From positions 62,001 through 126,000 of the forward strand of contig NZ_MSIE01000007.1 of assembly GCF_001921205.1 (NCBI RefSeq): DNA of 64,000 nt, written 5' to 3'. The number at the start of each line of letters is the position of its first letter. Positions within the stretch are counted from its first letter, which is position 1. This DNA comes from Actinophytocola xanthii. Its GTDB lineage: Bacteria; Actinomycetota; Actinomycetes; Mycobacteriales; Pseudonocardiaceae. The position numbers were made by a program, and so were the translations under genes. Positions 3,901 through 11,556 of the stretch are shown here, piece after piece. The notes below the pieces were generated by a model. It did not search any database and had not been told where the DNA came from. It was given only the letters and a program-made list of their open reading frames with translations.

Positions 3901-5058
3901 TCAGCCAGACTCCGCCGTCGGTGCCGCCGTCGGTGCCCCCGTCGGCGCCGGGGTCGGGCGCACGGACTCCGCCACGACCGTGCCGGCCAGCACCAGCGCC
4001 GCGACGGCGAGCTCCAGCCAGCCTCCCACCAGCAGGCCGGCGGGAACGCAGAGCCAGACCGCCGCCGCGGCGGCCAGCCGGGGCCAGGGCCAGCTCGGGG
4101 TGAGGCTGCGGCGGAACGCGGCCAGCCCCAGGAGGTAGCCGGTCAGGCCGATCGGCAGCAGCCAGGGCTCGAGGTCGTGCAGCGGCGAGCCGAGGTAGCT
4201 GACCGCCTTCTTCATGCCGACCGCGGCGACCGTGACGCCGGCGATCATCACCAGGTACGCGTACCCGAAGGAGAGCAGGGCGGCCAGCCCTCGGCGCCGC
4301 GCCGGCATCGCGTCCAGGGCGTGCTCGCCGGCCGCGTCCTCGTGGTCGAAGTACAGCCACCACATCGCCGCGCTCACCGCCAGCGCGAGCAGGGAGCCGA
4401 CCACGACGGTGGTCACGCTCCCCTTCGCGGTCGCCGCGGCGCCGACGGCGATGATCGACTCACCGAGCAGGATGATCAACGCGAGCCCGTGGCGTTCCAC
4501 GAAGTGGCCGGCGCCGACCACGAACCCGCTGATGCCCACGACGTGCGGGGTCGCGTAGTGCAGCACCACCACGGCCAGCGCCAGCCAGAGCCGGACGTCC
4601 GGCGGCAGGAACCCGGCGACGACCAGCACCGCCGCGCCGAGGAGGTTGAGCGGCCCCAGCCGCAGGATGGCCCCGCGCCCGGAGGTGCCGAGGAACCCGG
4701 CGGTGTGCACGACCACCACGACGAGGTAGGCGATCCCCAGGACGAGCCCGAACGGCCCCTCCTCGAAGTAGCGCGGCACCGCCAGCGACATGACGAAGTA
4801 CGCGGCCATCCCGGCGAGCAGGAGCAGGCGGGGCCGGGTGCGGTCGAGGTCCAGCGCGTTGGTCAGCCAGGCGTAGCCGCCGTACATCCACCAGACCACG
4901 GCCAGCAGCACCGTGACCCGGGCGAGCCCGGTGCCGGTGGGCGCGGCCGTGAGCACGGCGGCGATCTGGGTGATCGCGAAGACGAAGACGAGGTCGAAGA
5001 ACAGCTCGAGCGACCGGACCTTCTCGGCCGGCCCCGTCGGAACGCGGGTCGTCGTCAC
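3901..5058 (-). CDS. Low-temperature requirement protein A (LtrA) family membrane protein
   Basis: A protein of about 385 residues, mostly hydrophobic, with roughly ten to eleven membrane segments. It starts with the LtrA signature ELFFDLVFVFAITQ (residues about 17-30) and contains a second hallmark, ERHGLALIILLGESIIAVG, in the middle. LtrA was named from a Listeria cold-growth mutant; its biochemical role is not known. The GTG at 5058 is favoured over the longer frame because it follows GGGAGAGGG at 8 bases and places the signature near the N-terminus. The C-terminus ends in a short repetitive PTxAPTxAPT tail. Confidence 0.85.
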   Translation of the reverse strand: MTTTRVPTGPAEKVRSLELFFDLVFVFAITQIAAVLTAAPTGTGLARVTVLLAVVWWMYGGYAWLTNALDLDRTRPRLLLLAGMAAYFVMSLAVPRYFEEGPFGLVLGIAYLVVVVVHTAGFLGTSGRGAILRLGPLNLLGAAVLVVAGFLPPDVRLWLALAVVVLHYATPHVVGISGFVVGAGHFVERHGLALIILLGESIIAVGAAATAKGSVTTVVVGSLLALAVSAAMWWLYFDHEDAAGEHALDAMPARRRGLAALLSFGYAYLVMIAGVTVAAVGMKKAVSYLGSPLHDLEPWLLPIGLTGYLLGLAAFRRSLTPSWPWPRLAAAAAVWLCVPAGLLVGGWLELAVAALVLAGTVVAESVRPTPAPTGAPTAAPTAESG

Positions 5059-5240
5059 AGCGCGGTCCCTCTCCCGCTCACCCGGTCCGCCGGGTGCGGA
5101 CCGCCTCACGTGACCGCCCGGCGGCCACGTGACTCCCCCCAACACCGCGACCGCCGACGATCTTCCCGCGGCACCGACGCGGTTCGCGACCACAGCGGTC
5201 CTCAGTGGTCACGCACACCGTAGGGCACGTCCGCACCGGC
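5059..5240. other. Intergenic region between LtrA gene and CHAT gene
   Basis: About 180 bases upstream of the LtrA-family start and downstream of the CHAT gene stop, both on the minus strand. It must contain the LtrA promoter if that gene is transcribed separately. I see no clear -10/-35 pair and no strong hairpin. Confidence 0.35.
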
Positions 5241-7778
5241 TCAGCCGCTGCCGAAGCAGACGAGGGGTGTCAGCGGCTCGGTGAGCGTGGCGTCGGCCAG
5301 GGCTCTGGCGGGGGCGGCCCCGCGGGCCAGGGCGCGGTGGTAGGCGGTCATCACGCCCACCGCGGCGTGGTCGTTCATGCGCGCCACGCTGGAGACCACG
5401 GTGCGGGTGCCGCTGTAGAGCAGGGCCGCGGTGAAGCCGAGCATCTCGTCGCCCGCGCGCACGACGGTCTTGCCCACGTCGCAGGACGCGAGGATCACGT
5501 GTTCGGGCGCGGCACCGAGCCGGTGGATGTCGTAGGCCAGCAGCGGTCCGTCGGCGAGGTCGAGCCGGGAGAACAGCACGCTGTCCTGCTCGTGGTGGCC
5601 GTGCGCGGCGAAGTGGGCGATGCCGCAGCCGTCGAGTGCCTTGATCGCCGACTCGACGGTGGCGTCCGCGCCGACCAGGGTCTCCCCCTCGGGGTAGATG
5701 CGGGCCAGCTGCTCGACCTCGTCCGCGGCGTGCTCGAGGTCGGGGCCGGCGACGAGGAGCGTGCCGGCGGGCGGCGCGAGCGCGGCGCGCCGGGCGGAGA
5801 GCCACACGGTCGCCGAGGGCGACACGGTCACCGGGCGGCCCCGCAGGTCCGGCAGCAGCGCCCACGGCACGCCCGACAGCGGTCCGGTCGGCACCACGAC
5901 CAGGTCCTCGTCGCCCAGGCTCGGCCGCAGCGGCGCCAGCAGGTGCTCGGTCAGCACGCCCAGCTGGCGCCGGGCCGAGGTGCGCACCGCGGCGTCGAGC
6001 GGGGCCGGCAGCGCGCGACCGGACAGCACGTCCAGGTCGCTGCGCAACCGCATGATCGACTCGGTCACCGTGGGCAGGTCGCCGAGCGCGACGATCCGCG
6101 CGACCCGGTCGCCGGCCAGGAAGGCGTGGATCCGCGTGCCCACGGTGAAGAAGCTGACCAGTGCCGTGCCGGCCGCCGCGAGCTCGGCGCGGACCTCGGC
6201 CAGCTCGGCCTGGGCGTCGTGCTCGCCGGTGCCGCTGGTCTGCCAGCTCTGCGCGCGGATCTGGCGTTCCAGCTCCGCGCAGCGCCGTGCCGCCACCGGA
6301 TCGCGGCGGCCCTCGAGCTCGCTGGCCCGCGCCACGCGGGACAGCTGCCGCAGCTCGGCGACGGCGTCGACGGTGGCCGGGTCGTCGGTGGGGTGCACGG
6401 CACGCGAGCGGAACGCCTGCGCCCGCGAGTGCTCCAGCCAGCGGAACACCGTCGCCGGCCGGCCCACGGCCAGCGCGGCGTCGAGCCCGGCCCTGGCGAG
6501 CTCGGCACCGAGGGTGGCCACGCCGGTCTGGAGGTCGATGCTGCCGAAGTGGCTGCGGTGCTCGGCGAGACGGACCAGTCCGGCCCGGGCGTGCCGGAAG
6601 GTGGCCGGGTGGTCGCCGCGGGCGCTCGCGATCCGGGCCCGGACGACGTGCCGCTGCAACCGGGTGTCCAGCCTGGACCGTCGACCGGGTTGTCGCCGGA
6701 CCCGCTCGGCCGCCAGGTCGACCTGGCCACGGCTCAGGTGCGCGCGAGCGGCGAGCAGCTCGGCGGCCTCGGCGTCGTTGTCCAACCCCAGCGCGCGGAG
6801 TCGCTCGGCGAGCTCGCTGGCGGTGCCGGCGGCGGCGACCGCGCGCCGGCCGTCGGCGAACTCGGCACGCAGCCGGGTCAGCGCGGCGACCGCCGCCCAG
6901 GCCTCGTTGCGCCGCCGGCGGAACCGGCGCCGCGCCCGGGCCGCCCAGCGGGTTGCCGCGGCGTGGTCGCCGACCGCCAGGGCGATCTGCGCACGGGTCA
7001 GCTCGGCCTCGGCCTGCTCCTGGGTCATCCCCAGACCGGCGAACCCGGGCAGGGCGGCGTCGAGCACCTCGGCCGCGTCCACCGCGAGCCCGGCGGCGAG
7101 CAGGGCCCTGGCCTTCTCCACCGCGAGCACGACCAGCATCCCGTCCGCGTTCTCCGCGTACCCCTGCTCGGCCTGGTCGAAGGCACGCAGCGCCCCGGGG
7201 ACGTCCCCGGCGAGCAGCAGGCAGGAACCGCGGCCGTGGAAGGACTTCGCCACCTGGACGGTCATCCCGAGCTCCCGGCTGAGCTGCTCGCTGCGGGCCA
7301 GGTCGGCCAGCGCCGGGCGCACCTGGCCGGCGATCTGGTGGATGAACGCCCTGTTCAGCAGGGTCCGCGCGAGCGCGACCCGCTCCCCCGCCCGCTCGAG
7401 CAGCGGCACCGCCGCGTCGAAGCTGCGCACCGCCTCCTCGACCCGCCCGGTCATGGTCAGCAGCAGACCGCGTTGGAGCAGCAGCACCCCCCGGTTGTGC
7501 TCGGCGATGAGCGCGCCGGTTCCGTCCAGCAGCGCGAACCCCCGGTCGCTGTTGCCGCACGCGACCTCGGCGGCGGCGAGCGAGCCGAGCAGGCGGAAGG
7601 TCAGCTCGCGGTGCTCCGGCCAGCGTCCCGCCGGCTCGGGCCAGCCGAGCAGGCGCAGGCCCGCCCGCAACGACCTGGCACCGAGCAGCGGTCGACCCCG
7701 GTTGAGCGCCTCGAGCCCACGCCGGTGCAGCTCGCGTGCGCGGGCTTCCACGGCCTCCTCGGCCGGCTCACGGGGCAT
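5241..7778 (-). CDS. TPR-CHAT caspase-like protease
   Basis: An 845-residue protein. The first 550 or so residues are alpha-helical tetratricopeptide-like repeats rich in Ala, Leu and Arg. The C-terminal third (about 590-845) is a CHAT domain, the clan-CD protease fold related to caspases. Both catalytic residues are present: His726 in an HFAAHGHH segment and Cys766 in an ILASCDVGK segment. A DLVVVPTGPLSGVPWALL motif before them is the usual CHAT lead-in. Some CHAT proteases cleave a specific partner after activation, as in Craspase. This one is the last gene of a minus-strand unit headed by a subtilisin-like protease, with a small beta-sandwich protein between. The ATG at 7778 is the first in-frame start after the upstream stop (gap 41 bases), though its ribosome-binding site is weak. 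Confidence 0.85.
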   Translation of the reverse strand: MPREPAEEAVEARARELHRRGLEALNRGRPLLGARSLRAGLRLLGWPEPAGRWPEHRELTFRLLGSLAAAEVACGNSDRGFALLDGTGALIAEHNRGVLLLQRGLLLTMTGRVEEAVRSFDAAVPLLERAGERVALARTLLNRAFIHQIAGQVRPALADLARSEQLSRELGMTVQVAKSFHGRGSCLLLAGDVPGALRAFDQAEQGYAENADGMLVVLAVEKARALLAAGLAVDAAEVLDAALPGFAGLGMTQEQAEAELTRAQIALAVGDHAAATRWAARARRRFRRRRNEAWAAVAALTRLRAEFADGRRAVAAAGTASELAERLRALGLDNDAEAAELLAARAHLSRGQVDLAAERVRRQPGRRSRLDTRLQRHVVRARIASARGDHPATFRHARAGLVRLAEHRSHFGSIDLQTGVATLGAELARAGLDAALAVGRPATVFRWLEHSRAQAFRSRAVHPTDDPATVDAVAELRQLSRVARASELEGRRDPVAARRCAELERQIRAQSWQTSGTGEHDAQAELAEVRAELAAAGTALVSFFTVGTRIHAFLAGDRVARIVALGDLPTVTESIMRLRSDLDVLSGRALPAPLDAAVRTSARRQLGVLTEHLLAPLRPSLGDEDLVVVPTGPLSGVPWALLPDLRGRPVTVSPSATVWLSARRAALAPPAGTLLVAGPDLEHAADEVEQLARIYPEGETLVGADATVESAIKALDGCGIAHFAAHGHHEQDSVLFSRLDLADGPLLAYDIHRLGAAPEHVILASCDVGKTVVRAGDEMLGFTAALLYSGTRTVVSSVARMNDHAAVGVMTAYHRALARGAAPARALADATLTEPLTPLVCFGSG

Positions 7779-7819
7779 TCGGCCAGTATCCGTGCGGCGT
7801 CCACGATGACCAACAACGT

Positions 7820-8317
7820 TTAGGGTGACAAACCCCCTTTTCCGATCTCGATCGGCGGCGTGACGACGCGGTGCGACCCGGCGACGTCGTGCACGACGAG
7901 CTGCGCCGGTCCCGCCGGCACCTCCGCCAGCGCGAACCGGCCGGCGTCGTCGCTCTCGGTCGACATGGCGCGGGTGGGGCAGCGCAGCTCGACCCGGTGG
8001 CACGCGCCGGGCGAGAGCCAGCCGTCGACCCTGGTGGTGCCGTCGACGCGGGTGTCGAGCGTGATCATGATCGTCAGGTTGTCGCTCTGGAACGTGACGA
8101 GCCGGGTGAACTCGTCCGACCGCGCCGCCACCAGCCGCGACTCCTCGACGAGCCGCGCGAGCTCGGCGTCGAGGAGGTCACAGCCGTCGAGGCCGGCGAG
8201 GTCGACCGCGAACCGCACCCGCTCGACGAGACCGTCCGGCATGGGGTCGGCCTTCTCCAACATCGTCCGCAGCGCGTCGAGCAGCTCCGTCGGCTCCTGG
8301 GCGTCCTCGGGGCTCAC
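7820..8317 (-). CDS. Small CHAT-associated protein with carboxypeptidase-regulatory-like C-terminus
   Basis: 165 residues, GTG start with GGAGG 7 bases upstream. The N-terminal half is predicted helical and acidic (ELLDALRTMLEKADP, then a second helix to about residue 75). The C-terminal half looks like a small beta-sandwich of the transthyretin or carboxypeptidase-regulatory type, with the pattern DDAGRFALAEVPAGPAQLVV typical of those folds. It has no signal peptide and no catalytic motif that I recognise. It lies between the subtilisin and CHAT protease genes and is probably co-transcribed with both. It may be the adaptor, substrate or inhibitor that links the two proteases. That role is inference from position only. 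Confidence 0.7.
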   Translation of the reverse strand: MSPEDAQEPTELLDALRTMLEKADPMPDGLVERVRFAVDLAGLDGCDLLDAELARLVEESRLVAARSDEFTRLVTFQSDNLTIMITLDTRVDGTTRVDGWLSPGACHRVELRCPTRAMSTESDDAGRFALAEVPAGPAQLVVHDVAGSHRVVTPPIEIGKGGLSP

Positions 8318-8413
8318 CGGGCCGCCTCCCCGCGAGCGACGCCGGTTCTCGCGTCGCGGCCCGACATCAACAACCGGCGTGGCATGGCGGGGACCAGTGC
8401 ACCGGAGAAAGGT

Positions 8414-10015
8414 TCACGACGCCGGGTCGCAGGCCGTGCAGGCGTCGACGGCGAGACGGGCTCGCTCGCGCATCGCCTCCTGGCTGACCAGCCCCATCCG
8501 CAGCCGACCGGGGTCGGACTCCGCGTGCTCGACCAGGCGGTTGGCCAGTACCGCCGCGGCGTGTGGACCCGCGAACGAGGTGCCGTGCCACATGGCGAAC
8601 CCGCTGCTGAAGTCGTCCGGGTCGAGCGACTCCCGGTCCAGCTCCCGGATGGCGTTGGCCGGCCCGGTGCTCCCCCGCATGGTGGGGAACGTGCTCACCA
8701 CCGCGGCACCGGTCGCCCAGGCATGCACCCACGGCGCCTGGTTGCTGAAGAAGGCCTTGGTGCCGTTGGGGTTCAGCGCCCCCACGCTGATCACCGGCTG
8801 CCCGCCGCCGACCGGGGGGATGGTGGCGAGCGCGGCCGGGAAGAACGGGCGCGTGGTGGCGTCGTTGCCGGCCGCCGCGACGACCAGCACGCCGAGGTCG
8901 CTCAACGTGTGGAGGAGCCGGGCGAACTCGGTCGTCTCGGCCTCGTCGTCGAGCGTCTCGCAGTAGTAGCCGATGGAGATCGACAGCACGTCGACCATGT
9001 CGGCGGGGTCGCCCCCCGGTGCCTGCGCCGCCCGGACCTGCTCCACCAGCCGCTCGAGGGCGGCCAGCACGTCGCTCTCGTAGGCGACCCCGTCGCCGGC
9101 CATCACCCGGGCGACACCGACCTCGGCGTCCGGCGCGACCTGGCGGATGATGCCGGCGATGAACGTGCCGTGCCCGGTGTGCCGGTCGAGCTCGCCGGTC
9201 AGCGGGTTCGCCGGGACGTCGGCGTCCCAGTGGTCCTCGATGACCCTGGCCGCCGTGCCCGCGGCGCGGCTGCTCGCGGTGATGGCGTCCTGAACCTCCT
9301 TGAGGACGCGGATGAACCCGCCCGGCGGGAAGCCGGCGTCGCGGTCGGTCGCCCCGAACCACTCGTGCGGGGAGATCCCCGTGTCCAGCACGGCGACCAC
9401 CGGCCGCCGGTCGAACCCGCCGCCGGGAACCAGCTGCCGCGGCGTCGGCGGCCGCAGGCCGACGCTGACCGGGACCGGTCCGCCGCGTGCCGACCGCAGG
9501 TAGGAGTCCCTGCCGAACAGGCCGTGGGAGTCCCAGGGTGCCGGGTCGATGCCGTGGGAGTCCCACGGCGCGGGGTCCAGGCCCAGGAACAGCAGGTGTT
9601 CCAGCGTCACCGGATCCGGCGCCTGGACGGTGCGGGCGAGTTCCGGGGCCGGTTCGGCGGCCGCCGCCTGCCGCAGGTGCCAGAGCGCGAACCAGGCGTC
9701 GACGGTCGCGGGCCGCGCCGGGTCGAGCGCCTCGAGCCGGGCCACCGGCCGGGGGTGCCCGTTGGACGGTCCCACCAGCCGCAGGTTGATGCCGGCGAGA
9801 ACCCGGTCGATCGCGTCCCGGTCCGCGTCCACCGGTAAGCGCAGGACATCGGTGCGGTAACCGGTCGCCGTGGGGGCGGGACCGGTCACCTCGCACATCG
9901 GGTCCGTGCGCTTGAGGACCCGCGCACCATGTCTGGCCAGGAGTCTCCCCGGGACGTCGGGTACGTCGGTACCGAGACCTTCGTCGCGTGGGTTGCGCCG
10001 GACGTAGAAGTGCAT
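8414..10015 (-). CDS. S8 family (subtilisin-like) serine protease
   Basis: 533 residues with the full subtilase triad: Asp211 (VAVLDTGIS), His282 (GHGTFIAG) and Ser480 (HGTSFAGPH); an AAAGND segment supplies the oxyanion Asn. No signal peptide is visible, so the enzyme is probably cytoplasmic, unlike most secreted subtilisins. The first 200 residues form an extra N-terminal region that could be a prodomain or sensor. It carries a perfect 10-residue tandem duplication, DPAPWDSHG-type, encoded at about 9520-9580. The ATG at 10015 follows GGAGG at 5 bases; the ATG 12 bases upstream overlaps that ribosome-binding site and is rejected. It is the first gene of the unit that ends in the CHAT protease. 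Confidence 0.88.
   Translation of the reverse strand: MHFYVRRNPRDEGLGTDVPDVPGRLLARHGARVLKRTDPMCEVTGPAPTATGYRTDVLRLPVDADRDAIDRVLAGINLRLVGPSNGHPRPVARLEALDPARPATVDAWFALWHLRQAAAAEPAPELARTVQAPDPVTLEHLLFLGLDPAPWDSHGIDPAPWDSHGLFGRDSYLRSARGGPVPVSVGLRPPTPRQLVPGGGFDRRPVVAVLDTGISPHEWFGATDRDAGFPPGGFIRVLKEVQDAITASSRAAGTAARVIEDHWDADVPANPLTGELDRHTGHGTFIAGIIRQVAPDAEVGVARVMAGDGVAYESDVLAALERLVEQVRAAQAPGGDPADMVDVLSISIGYYCETLDDEAETTEFARLLHTLSDLGVLVVAAAGNDATTRPFFPAALATIPPVGGGQPVISVGALNPNGTKAFFSNQAPWVHAWATGAAVVSTFPTMRGSTGPANAIRELDRESLDPDDFSSGFAMWHGTSFAGPHAAAVLANRLVEHAESDPGRLRMGLVSQEAMRERARLAVDACTACDPAS
9520..9582. repeat. 30-bp tandem duplication inside the S8 protease gene
   Basis: Two near-identical 30-base units containing CCGTGGGAGTCCCA follow each other. 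They duplicate ten residues (GIDPAPWDSH-type) in the N-terminal region of the protease without changing the frame. Copies differ by only a few bases, so the duplication looks recent. Confidence 0.7.
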
Positions 10016-10159
10016 TGGGACCTCCATGCGGGGGTGGACACACGGCTTCTCGAACTGGAGCCGGGCCAGAGCCGGCAGATACGTCCATCAACATCACGAG
10101 TCGGTAACGCCGTCCGGGCACTAGTCTCGTCGCGGGGGACGGAACGGAGGCGGGCGCAC

Positions 10160-10495
10160 GTGAGCGACACCGATCCGCACATCCACGTCGAGCGGAACGT
10201 CGTCCAGGCGGGCGCCGACTTCCGCAACGCGATCACGTTGACGTTGGGCCTGGTGACCGACGCGCCGAGCACGGTCACCACCGGCTGCGGCCGCCATGTG
10301 CCCTACGCGATGACCTCCACCCGGCCGGAGAGCGTCACCTGCCTGCCGTGCCGGGAGCACGCCCACCAGGAGTACCTGAAGCTCGCCGACCAGATCGAGC
10401 GACTGAGCCGACCGCCCCAGGTCAACATCACCGCCGAGCAGGCGGCCCAGGCCGTCGCCCGGCTCCGGGAGCTCGCCGAAAGGTTCGCCGCGTAG
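10160..10495 (+). CDS. Small hypothetical protein with putative zinc-binding Cys/His cluster
   Basis: 111 residues, GTG start with GGAGG 9 bases upstream. The centre has a Cys/His set (TGCGRHVPYAM, then VTCLPCREHAH) that could bind one metal ion, followed by an amphipathic helical tail (EQAAQAVARLRELAERF). I do not recognise a named family. It is transcribed divergently from the subtilisin/CHAT module, about 145 bases away. A regulatory or accessory link to that module is possible but unproven. Confidence 0.65.
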   Translation: MSDTDPHIHVERNVVQAGADFRNAITLTLGLVTDAPSTVTTGCGRHVPYAMTSTRPESVTCLPCREHAHQEYLKLADQIERLSRPPQVNITAEQAAQAVARLRELAERFAA

Positions 10496-10499
10496 CGCT

Positions 10500-10523
10500 G
10501 TTTCCCCTCGTCTGTGCGGGTAC
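10500..10523 (+). promoter_or_regulatory. Sigma-B-like stress promoter upstream of brkB
   Basis: GTTT at 10500-10503 and GGGTAC at 10518-10523 are separated by 14 bases. This fits the actinobacterial sigma-B/sigma-F-family consensus (GNNT, 14-16 bases, GGGTAY). The ATG of the BrkB-family gene lies about 55 bases downstream. Between them an inverted repeat (CCTGCAT at 10525-10531, ATGCAGG at 10551-10557) could form a 5' leader hairpin. Confidence 0.5.
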
Positions 10524-10578
10524 CCCTGCATGCGCGCGACGCGCGACGAGATGCAGGCAGGTACGGAGAAGAGACGTC

Positions 10579-11556
10579 ATGACCGACACCGCTCAGCCGA
10601 AGAACCACGAACGGCCGCCGGAGAAGCCCACGTCCATGGACCGCGGATCCTGGTGGCAGGTGCTCAAACGCACCGCCAAGGAGTTCAACGAGGACAACCT
10701 GACCGACTGGGCCGCCGCCCTCACCTACTACGCGGTCCTGTCCATCTTCCCGGGTCTGCTGGTCGTCGTCTCCCTGCTCGGTCTCTTCGGCCAGGACACG
10801 GTCAACACCGTCATCAACGACCTCGGGTCGGCCGCTCCGGACGCGGTGCGCGACATCCTCGTCAACGCCACCCGCAACCTACAGAACTCCCAGGGCACCG
10901 CGGGTCTGCTGGCCATCGTCGGTCTGGCCGGCGGGCTCTGGTCGGCGTCCAACTACGTGGCCGGGTTCATGCGTGCCTCCAACGACATCTACGACGTCCC
11001 GGAAGGCCGGCCGATCTGGAAGACGTTGCCGATCAGGATCGGCGTCACGCTCGTGATCGCGATCCTGCTGACGGTGAGCGTGCTCATCGTGGTGCTGACC
11101 GGTGGCGTCGCCGAGTACGTCGGTGAGCTGATCGGCGCCGGCGAGACGTTCGTGACCATCTGGCAGTACGCGAAGTGGCCGGTCCTGGTGATCATCATCA
11201 GCCAGATCCTCGCCCTGCTGTACTGGGCCGCCCCCAACGCCAAGCAGGCCGGCGCACGCTGGGTCAGCCCCGGCGGGATCCTCGCCGTGGTCGTGTGGAT
11301 CATCGCGTCGGCGGGTTTCGCCTTCTACGTCGCGAACTTCGGGTCCTACAACAAGACCTACGGCACCCTCGCCGGTGTGATCATCTTCCTGGTCTGGCTC
11401 TGGATCTCGAACATCGCGGTGCTCCTCGGTGCCGAGTTCGACGCCGAGATGCACCGCGGCCGGGCCATCGAGGCCGGTCACCCCGAGGAGAAGGAGCCGT
11501 TCGTCGGCCTGCGGGACGATCGCGCCCTCGACGAGGACGAGAAGAAGGCGACGTAA
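10579..11556 (+). CDS. YihY/BrkB family membrane protein
   Basis: 325 residues. After a charged N-terminus of about 45 residues come family features: NLTDWAAALTYYAVLSIFPGLLVVVSLLG, an LWSASNYVAGFMRASNDIYD segment, and a C-terminal membrane block with KQAGARWVSPGGILAVVVWIIAS and YNKTYGTLAGVIIFLVWLWISN. About six membrane helices are expected. The family was once thought to be RNase BN; it is now treated as an envelope protein of unknown transport function. The ATG has GGAGAAGAG just upstream. Its promoter looks sigma-B-like, consistent with stress induction. The tail is highly charged. Confidence 0.9.
   Translation: MTDTAQPKNHERPPEKPTSMDRGSWWQVLKRTAKEFNEDNLTDWAAALTYYAVLSIFPGLLVVVSLLGLFGQDTVNTVINDLGSAAPDAVRDILVNATRNLQNSQGTAGLLAIVGLAGGLWSASNYVAGFMRASNDIYDVPEGRPIWKTLPIRIGVTLVIAILLTVSVLIVVLTGGVAEYVGELIGAGETFVTIWQYAKWPVLVIIISQILALLYWAAPNAKQAGARWVSPGGILAVVVWIIASAGFAFYVANFGSYNKTYGTLAGVIIFLVWLWISNIAVLLGAEFDAEMHRGRAIEAGHPEEKEPFVGLRDDRALDEDEKKAT

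Follow-up and report, generated by a model that had tools for sequence, protein, structure and literature searches.

We analyzed a 64,000-nucleotide stretch of the Actinophytocola xanthii genome (positions 62,001 to 126,000 of contig NZ_MSIE01000007.1, in the 8.3-Mb, 204-contig assembly GCF_001921205.1; hereafter the window) and in particular an operon that encodes a subtilisin-like S8 protease, a small protein, and a protein with tetratricopeptide repeats (TPRs) and a CHAT protease domain. Judged from sequence comparison, this operon derives, with loss of the sigma gene, from a conserved actinobacterial module made up of genes for the S8 protease, an extracytoplasmic function (ECF) sigma factor, the small protein, and the TPR-CHAT protein. 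We favor, at roughly even confidence, the idea that the module is a protease-gated sigma switch in which the caspase/separase-like protease cuts an anti-sigma-like protein, as Csx29 cuts Csx30, and that the window's operon is driven in trans. The features of the operon are the following.

5241..7778, minus strand: TPR-CHAT protease, 845 residues, with a TPR superhelix at about 5-370 and a CHAT domain at about 617-845.
7820..8317, minus strand: small switch-like protein, 165 residues, with two N-terminal helices and then a beta-sandwich (AlphaFold2).
8120..8122, minus strand: codon for R66 of the small protein, a near-invariant loop Arg and the predicted CHAT cleavage site (A-R-S, cut between R and S).
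8318..8413, minus strand: S8/small junction, 96 bases, the site of the ECF sigma gene in relatives.
8414..10015, minus strand: S8 (subtilisin-like) protease, 533 residues, Pfam PF00082 Peptidase_S8 at E=5.5e-23.
9521..9577, minus strand: tandem repeat DPAPWDSHGI-DPAPWDSHG in the S8 linker, residues about 147-165, N-terminal to the catalytic domain.
10057..10082, minus strand: putative sigma-type promoter GTATC-N17-CTCC, 41 bases ahead of the S8 start codon.

Related loci were collected in two sets. In particular, 200 genomes of the Pseudonocardiaceae were searched with the small protein and with the S8 protein, and 107 family loci (the window included), picked non-randomly among the matches listed, were annotated with profiles of the four families; a second set, from an S8-alignment scan of named genomes, holds the best 80 of at least 304 relatives. 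(Note that the sets partly overlap; L142, L143, L145, and L146, for example, come from the same genomes as L062, L064, L067, and L066, respectively.) The 107 family loci read sigma-small-CHAT in 42 cases, sigma-small in 33 (with no CHAT gene in view, two of them being cut by a contig end), S8-sigma-small-CHAT in 21, S8-CHAT in eight, and S8-small-CHAT in two, with one divergent arrangement. A sigma gene lies immediately 5' of the small gene in 97 of the 99 family loci that bear the latter. Only the window and a locus from a congener (L081) depart from this rule, and they are also the sole two family loci with the S8-small-CHAT arrangement. The usual fourth gene specifies an ECF sigma factor, the protein of one relative matching Sigma70_r2 (E=1.8e-8) and TIGR02937 (E=1.2e-16). 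In the named set, whose hosts span the Actinobacteria (Microbacterium, Nocardioides, Cellulosimicrobium, Amycolatopsis, and others), we found 37 loci with the order sigma-small-S8-CHAT, 29 with the order S8-sigma-small-CHAT, three with S8 alone, three with S8-CHAT, and eight that were of another kind or cut by a contig end. Thus, all four genes are present in either of two orders in 66 of the 80, a few of which (L143 and L210, for instance) have broken copies. The fact that the same four genes occur in two orders in distant genera argues that they form one functional unit, and we rejected the picture of an isolated three-gene module because the 107 and 80 loci reveal the sigma gene as a fourth member.

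The original prediction for this DNA, which held that the three genes form a protease module, had staked itself on conserved co-occurrence of the genes in related genomes, and co-occurrence is what we found: among the matches listed, the CHAT family (E<=1e-60) is present in 106 of the 106 genomes that have the small protein (E<=1e-3), as against 19 of the 94 that do not (Fisher p=2e-37). Moreover, S8 and CHAT genes are paired without an adjacent sigma or small gene at 8 of the 107 family loci (several of which were chosen for having no small gene nearby) and at 3 of the 80 named ones. This linkage makes a functional connection between the two proteases likely, within a conserved unit. Some loci depart from the usual content in other ways. 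In Kibdelosporangium philippinense (L064:8252-8804, on a contig shared with L143), only the final 100 or so codons of the CHAT gene are left and the small gene is shortened, with the S8 and sigma genes remaining full-length. Two Nitriliruptoria loci (L171 and L192) are small-S8-CHAT clusters that have no sigma gene directly beside them and encode two S8 proteins each, with different repeat units.

Using the sigma proteins of 29 relatives as tblastn queries against the whole window and L081, we found no match at E<0.1, and so we rejected the possibility that a remnant of the sigma gene is hidden in the 96-base gap. In a tree of CHAT proteins the window and L081 form a pair nested among S8-sigma-small-CHAT loci (support 98/95), which argues that the loss of sigma is derived. 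The small protein appears to have drifted after that loss, most strongly in its N-terminal half, while retaining Arg66. Specifically, between the window and L081 the ratio of nonsynonymous to synonymous change (Ka/Ks) is 0.23 for S8, 0.23 for CHAT, and 0.65 for the small protein (the last a value from a single pair and 149 codons), and for the small protein in nine sigma-bearing pairs it is 0.09-0.34. The N-terminal half of the small protein, which carries six extra residues in the window, is identical at 28 of 72 positions between the two, and at 65-97% in seven other pairs. Relaxed constraint following sigma loss would be expected to produce such a change, which is seen here in one pair. We entertained the idea that the window's operon, deprived of its regulator, is now functionless and in decay, since no trace of sigma was found, the small protein has the high ratio just given, and one half of the promoter is altered in the congener. 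The S8 and CHAT genes nevertheless evolve at a ratio of 0.23 and retain their catalytic residues, three intact frames persist in two species, and the window has kept the promoter motif, such that we consider decay quite improbable.

The promoter motif was counted as GTATC-N17-CTC[CT], with exactly 17 bases between the halves, in non-redundant upstream regions. It is present in 53 of 132 regions upstream of sigma (shuffle mean 0.16; reverse strand 1), in 16 of 88 upstream of S8 (shuffles 0.12; reverse 3), and in 4 of 128 upstream of CHAT (shuffles 0.08; reverse 1), all four of the latter lying before a gene for a repeat peptide. Other spacers in the range 14-19 gave at most five. The exact motif, with CTCT as second half, also stands before the S8 gene of the sigma-less S8-CHAT loci L055, L056, L061, and L155. 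In the window it matches once in 64 kb against 0.31 expected, a count that is weak when taken alone. The stricter form GTATCT-N16-CTCY has eight matches in the 8.3-Mb genome (one when the pattern is read backwards), three of which are at two modules; the five away from the modules have no clear common theme. (Note that one of these five, at G000:C160:14131-14156, minus strand, is 31 bases upstream of an open frame that extends over 489 residues or more and has what looks by eye like a signal sequence, and this frame is a possible further member of the regulon.) The window's operon thus appears to retain the sigma-type promoter GTATC-N17-CTCC, and since this promoter has been kept despite the loss of the sigma gene, the operon is most likely driven in trans. 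Two candidate sigma genes lie elsewhere in the same genome, one in a second module on contig C46 (163 bits) and one on C123 (133 bits), and it is probably to a sigma factor encoded elsewhere, with G000:C46 and G000:C123 as candidates, that the operon answers.

All three genes of the operon are intact and co-oriented, with intergenic gaps of 96 and 41 bases, and gene calls and Pfam agree with the place and strand originally assigned to them. The S8 protease likely starts at ATG 10015 (with GGAGG immediately 5'), the small protein at GTG 8317, and the TPR-CHAT protein at ATG 7778 (the gene caller instead picked 7670). The Peptidase_S8 match spans residues 208-507 in the numbering of a 537-residue reading of S8, and the TPR-CHAT protein matches CHAT (E=9.9e-33) and TPR_12 (E=1.3e-7). 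The catalytic residues had been named correctly: Asp211/His282/Ser480 are invariant in 12 of 12 aligned S8 proteins, and His726/Cys766 in 17 of 17 and in 43 of 43 aligned CHAT proteins (the larger alignment being that of the window and 42 of the 66 sequences listed). Consistent with the earlier statement that S8 has no signal peptide, its N-terminus shows, by eye, no hydrophobic leader.

The AlphaFold2 model of the TPR-CHAT protein has a predicted local distance difference test score (pLDDT) of 91.6 and a predicted template modeling score (pTM) of 0.90. Foldseek places separase at ranks 1-8 (best E=7.9e-16) and Csx29 at rank 9 (8eey_B, E=9.1e-13), and also matches DdvA (8rw5, E=1e-11). With VIA-align, the model aligns to separase with Z 29.8 and a root-mean-square deviation (rmsd) of 2.8 over 303 residues (about 440-845) at 16% identity, and to the TPR-CHAT protein of Craspase with Z 30.6 and rmsd 7.6 over 448 aligned positions (Craspase chains, Z 24-31). 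A profile of the CHAT domain ranks DdvA, a Myxococcus protein, first among solved structures (E=5.4e-10), followed by Craspase TPR-CHAT (E=6.8e-6). Separase cleaves after Arg, and at the position equivalent to D803 it would use an Asp to hold the P1 Arg. D803 is invariant in 19 CHAT domains, and is aligned to an Asp in DdvA and to a Ser in Craspase TPR-CHAT. The TPR part resembles RRNPP receptors (Z 23-29); other TPR proteins score nearly equally (APC/C 27, MalT 26), and we therefore rejected this likeness as a specific one.

The small protein was predicted to be a beta-sandwich, a claim to which the AlphaFold2 model (pLDDT 86.8, pTM 0.73) lends support and adds two helices in front, at 9-23 and 30-40. 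R66 sits in the loop that joins predicted strands 55-63 and 70-77. Of 170 small proteins that cover at least 85% of the profile, 98 remain when sequences are kept under 80% identity, and 97 of these non-redundant sequences have Arg at residue 66, the remaining one having Lys; all but one of the 98 have Gly, Ser, Ala, or Thr at the next position. Segments 57-61 and 68-72 have entropies of 2.7-3.6 bits, with 1.1-2.4 bits at positions 62-65 and 67. In an alignment of 64 small proteins (the window and 63 of 74 references, down to 25% identity), the only invariant columns are P27, R66, G126, and T153. Given the likeness of the CHAT protein both to separase, which cuts after Arg, and to Csx29, which cuts a loop of Csx30, this Arg among highly variable loop segments is a natural candidate, and we predict from these alignments that it is the CHAT cut site.

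In the full module, the TPR superhelix of the TPR-CHAT protein would sense a signal, and the activated protease would cut the loop of the small protein after R66. The small protein would be an anti-sigma-like switch that holds the ECF sigma factor through its helical N-terminal part, and its cleavage would free sigma to turn on GTATC-N17-CTCY promoters, that of its own operon included. S8 would be a second protease of the pathway, probably zymogenic, with its repeat linker serving either as an array of processing sites or as a docking tag that is read by the TPR-CHAT protein. In the window's lineage, where the sigma gene was lost and the sigma-type promoter kept, the remaining three proteins may form a protease relay in which R66 is still the target.

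The S8 linker bears lineage-specific tandem repeats whose copies differ in DNA and barely in protein. Among 90 S8 proteins that cover at least 330 profile positions (fragments were dropped), 69 have a tandem repeat that scores above 99% of 200 shuffles and is located in the linker that leads into the catalytic domain. The units are 5-11 residues long and differ by lineage (NPFTRT, PYWDPV, PFGNGV, HPLYDG, and GWGDGI, for example). Of 50 distinct units, 34 are six residues long and 47 have a Pro; in 46 of the 47, some copies at least have F, W, Y, V, I, L, or M directly after a Pro. The DPAPWDSHGI repeat occurs twice in the window, where it scores above all 200 shuffles and its copies have three synonymous and no nonsynonymous codon differences, and three times in L081. 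Over 47 arrays, copies differ at 348 synonymous and 32 nonsynonymous nucleotides against a neutral opportunity of 3.79 nonsynonymous per synonymous, in a count that takes in whole arrays with their inner copies and follows detection by protein similarity, which favors synonymous differences; on this count we rejected recent slippage as the origin of the arrays. Moreover, orthologues from different genera share their repeat units (L171 and L192). Synonymous divergence, a fixed place in the protease, and lineage-specific units together suggest that the S8 repeats have a cognate reader. (Note that the closest solved sequence to the S8 alignment profile is that of the CylA protease 9ekq, E=8.7e-17.)

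A speculative extension, which we think has a small chance of being correct, is that the S8 repeats are peptide ligands for the TPR superhelix of the partner. They would be lineage barcodes, read in the way that RRNPP receptors (Rap, NprR, AimR) read pheromones, and would gate the proteolytic release of sigma; other barcode-bearing proteins, such as a trypsin-like neighbor in Knoellia, would be enrolled as well, and modules without S8 would use free-standing repeat peptides. Across whole genomes, the units hardly occur outside S8. Every match to PFGNGV is inside S8 genes, in four genomes (G166 and G208, with identical coordinates, are apparently one genome), and 18 of 21 matches to NPF[ST]RT are in S8 arrays, in six genomes, the other three being singles elsewhere. 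The Knoellia sinensis genome has ten GWGDGI matches, six of them in S8 and four in a divergent trypsin-like neighbor. This neighbor (L201:4051-5628, minus strand) carries GWGDGISDYGQ four times, its Pfam trypsin match is sub-threshold, and no homologue of it was found among the other called genes of L042-L221. Sigma-small-CHAT loci without S8 encode free-standing short repeat proteins (GHVGTGSAPEG, PTGVYDPNTPP, and GGVAHPNGGIPHAETT, for example), which lie between the small and CHAT genes at L048:2905-3372, L049, L050, L094, and L140, and before sigma at L084, L089, L112, L113, L129, L135, and L138; several further short proteins that precede sigma have a lone G-[HYFQN]-H-[EQD] motif.

The original prediction saw in the two proteases a cascade of the conflict or cell-death type. 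As a rival to the sigma switch, this amounts to a death or defense relay in which one protease activates the other and the sigma factor of relatives only controls expression. The persistence of the S8-CHAT pair where sigma and small genes are not adjacent, the conservation of both active sites, and the position of the linker arrays where a zymogen would be cut all agree with a relay, as do weak matches of the S8 catalytic domain to the PADLOC models for 'subtilase' (E=1.5e-7) and IetS (E=1.9e-5), although on the curated NCBIfam model for IetS/IteS S8 scores 18.8 bits, below the cut-off of 900. The CHAT protein, on the other hand, matches no PADLOC model. Two regulators among ten window neighbors weakly match models of CRISPR-associated regulators (WYL at 9.3e-5 and CasR at 5.4e-4; CARF3 at 3.7e-6), probably through their DNA-binding parts, and the other eight match nothing at E<=0.001. 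We therefore rejected the label of defense island for this locus. Housekeeping sites are common: a GroEL homologue (Pfam Cpn60) is in view at 14 of 42 sigma-small-CHAT loci, at 21 of 33 sigma-small loci, and at none with S8, and seven S8-CHAT loci (L055-L061) adjoin mnmA-like and class-V aminotransferase (cysteine-desulfurase-like) genes. (The GroEL association thus covers 35 of the 75 S8-free loci, L042, L046, L049, and L117 among them, and CHAT is often missing there.) Furthermore, 33 of the 107 family loci keep sigma and small without CHAT in view. On balance we consider a death or defense relay unlikely. Of the cascade as first proposed, the functional link between S8 and CHAT holds up as likely; its core logic as death or defense is not supported, given an ECF sigma factor as fourth member, sigma-small loci without adjacent CHAT, a shared sigma-type promoter, and housekeeping sites, and the expected presence in defense islands was not borne out by PADLOC or by the neighborhoods. 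Next to the operon, a divergently oriented 111-residue protein (window 10160-10495, plus strand) has a weak zinc-finger-like match (E=0.056) and is matched by phmmer to none of the genes called in L042-L081, and an Rfam scan of window positions 4900-10600 gave no match.

Several observations count against a sigma switch of the kind that we favor. The exact promoter motif is missing from 79 of 132 sigma and 72 of 88 S8 upstream regions, and the congener L081 has TGTATC before S8 without an exact CTCY half. No tandem repeat of the kind described is found in 21 of the 90 S8 proteins, and PWDSHG has two matches in the window's genome, both in this S8, with no partner protein carrying it. In Foldseek the model of the small protein matches nothing under E=0.001 (the best, at E=0.013, is Ig/FN3-like), its profile finds no Csx30 or anti-sigma match among PDB sequences at E<=1, and R66 could have a structural role instead. 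The C-terminal part of the small protein, too, has its lowest identity in the window pair (67 of 104 positions, against 73-97% in the other pairs), and the drift is thus not confined to the part presumed to bind sigma. The ECF54 account in PMC8999054 reports a proposal of control by proteolysis without an anti-sigma factor. Finally, sigma is missing from the window and from the vicinity of the small genes at L171 and L220, and in these cases the small protein must act without a local sigma factor. This last point leads to a further rival, namely that the small protein acts on the proteases, as their inhibitor or chaperone, and is not an anti-sigma factor, with R66 contacting their active site and sigma only driving the operon. 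The small protein does stay with S8 and CHAT in the window, L081, L171, and L220, all without a local sigma, and a conserved loop Arg would fit an inhibitor loop as well. That sigma-small pairs occur without adjacent CHAT at 33 of 107 loci argues against such a role, though those genomes have CHAT elsewhere, as does the finding that the N-terminal half of the small protein drifts most where sigma has been lost; we regard the inhibitor role as doubtful.

The neighborhood itself is already known. According to PMC8999054 (citing Casas-Pastor 2021 and Huang 2015), the genomic context of ECF54 members includes carboxypeptidase, subtilase, and CHAT proteins. The window's cluster shares the subtilase and CHAT genes with that context and differs from it in lacking the sigma gene that 97 of the 99 small-bearing family loci possess. 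The 'carboxypeptidase' of ECF54 is probably the small two-helix and beta-sandwich protein, whose CarboxypepD_reg match, its only one in Pfam, is sub-threshold (E=0.014; 16.2 bits, cut-off 32.3). The repeats, R66, and the promoter do not figure in the ECF54 account of PMC8999054, and our search of the openly accessible literature found no experimental study of this module. A close parallel is Craspase. As described in PMC10028731, Csx29 cleaves Csx30, a sigma inhibitor, within a small, flexible loop; in the authors' model this cut relieves CASP-sigma. That system pairs an ECF sigma factor with a restraining protein that is cleaved in a flexible loop, and the module shares with it a TPR-CHAT protein with a separase-like protease fold. 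Unlike Craspase, the module includes an S8 protease, its small protein has no Csx30 counterpart at the PDB threshold given above, and the window's CHAT protein scores 9.6 bits on the curated Csx29 model (cut-off 300). DdvA (PDB 8rot, 8rw5) is deposited as a transmembrane anti-sigma factor, whereas in the module the presumed role of switch falls to a protein of its own and the CHAT protein has, by eye, no membrane segment. In the case of separase, the likeness lies in the fold, at low sequence identity, and substrate and cell biology are unrelated. EACC2-caspase neighborhoods, as treated in PMC8195603, have a caspase-type peptidase, often with an ECF sigma factor and a TPR protein, and autopeptidase activation was proposed for them; their own constant components are EACC2 and DUF1822, and that treatment does not mention an S8-small pair.

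If the module does work as a protease-gated sigma switch, control of the Csx29-Csx30 type would be a general design of actinobacterial signaling rather than a peculiarity of CRISPR, with the CRISPR system as one adaptation of it. Moreover, R66 and the GTATC-N17-CTCY promoter would make the proposal of proteolytic control in the ECF literature open to direct experiment.

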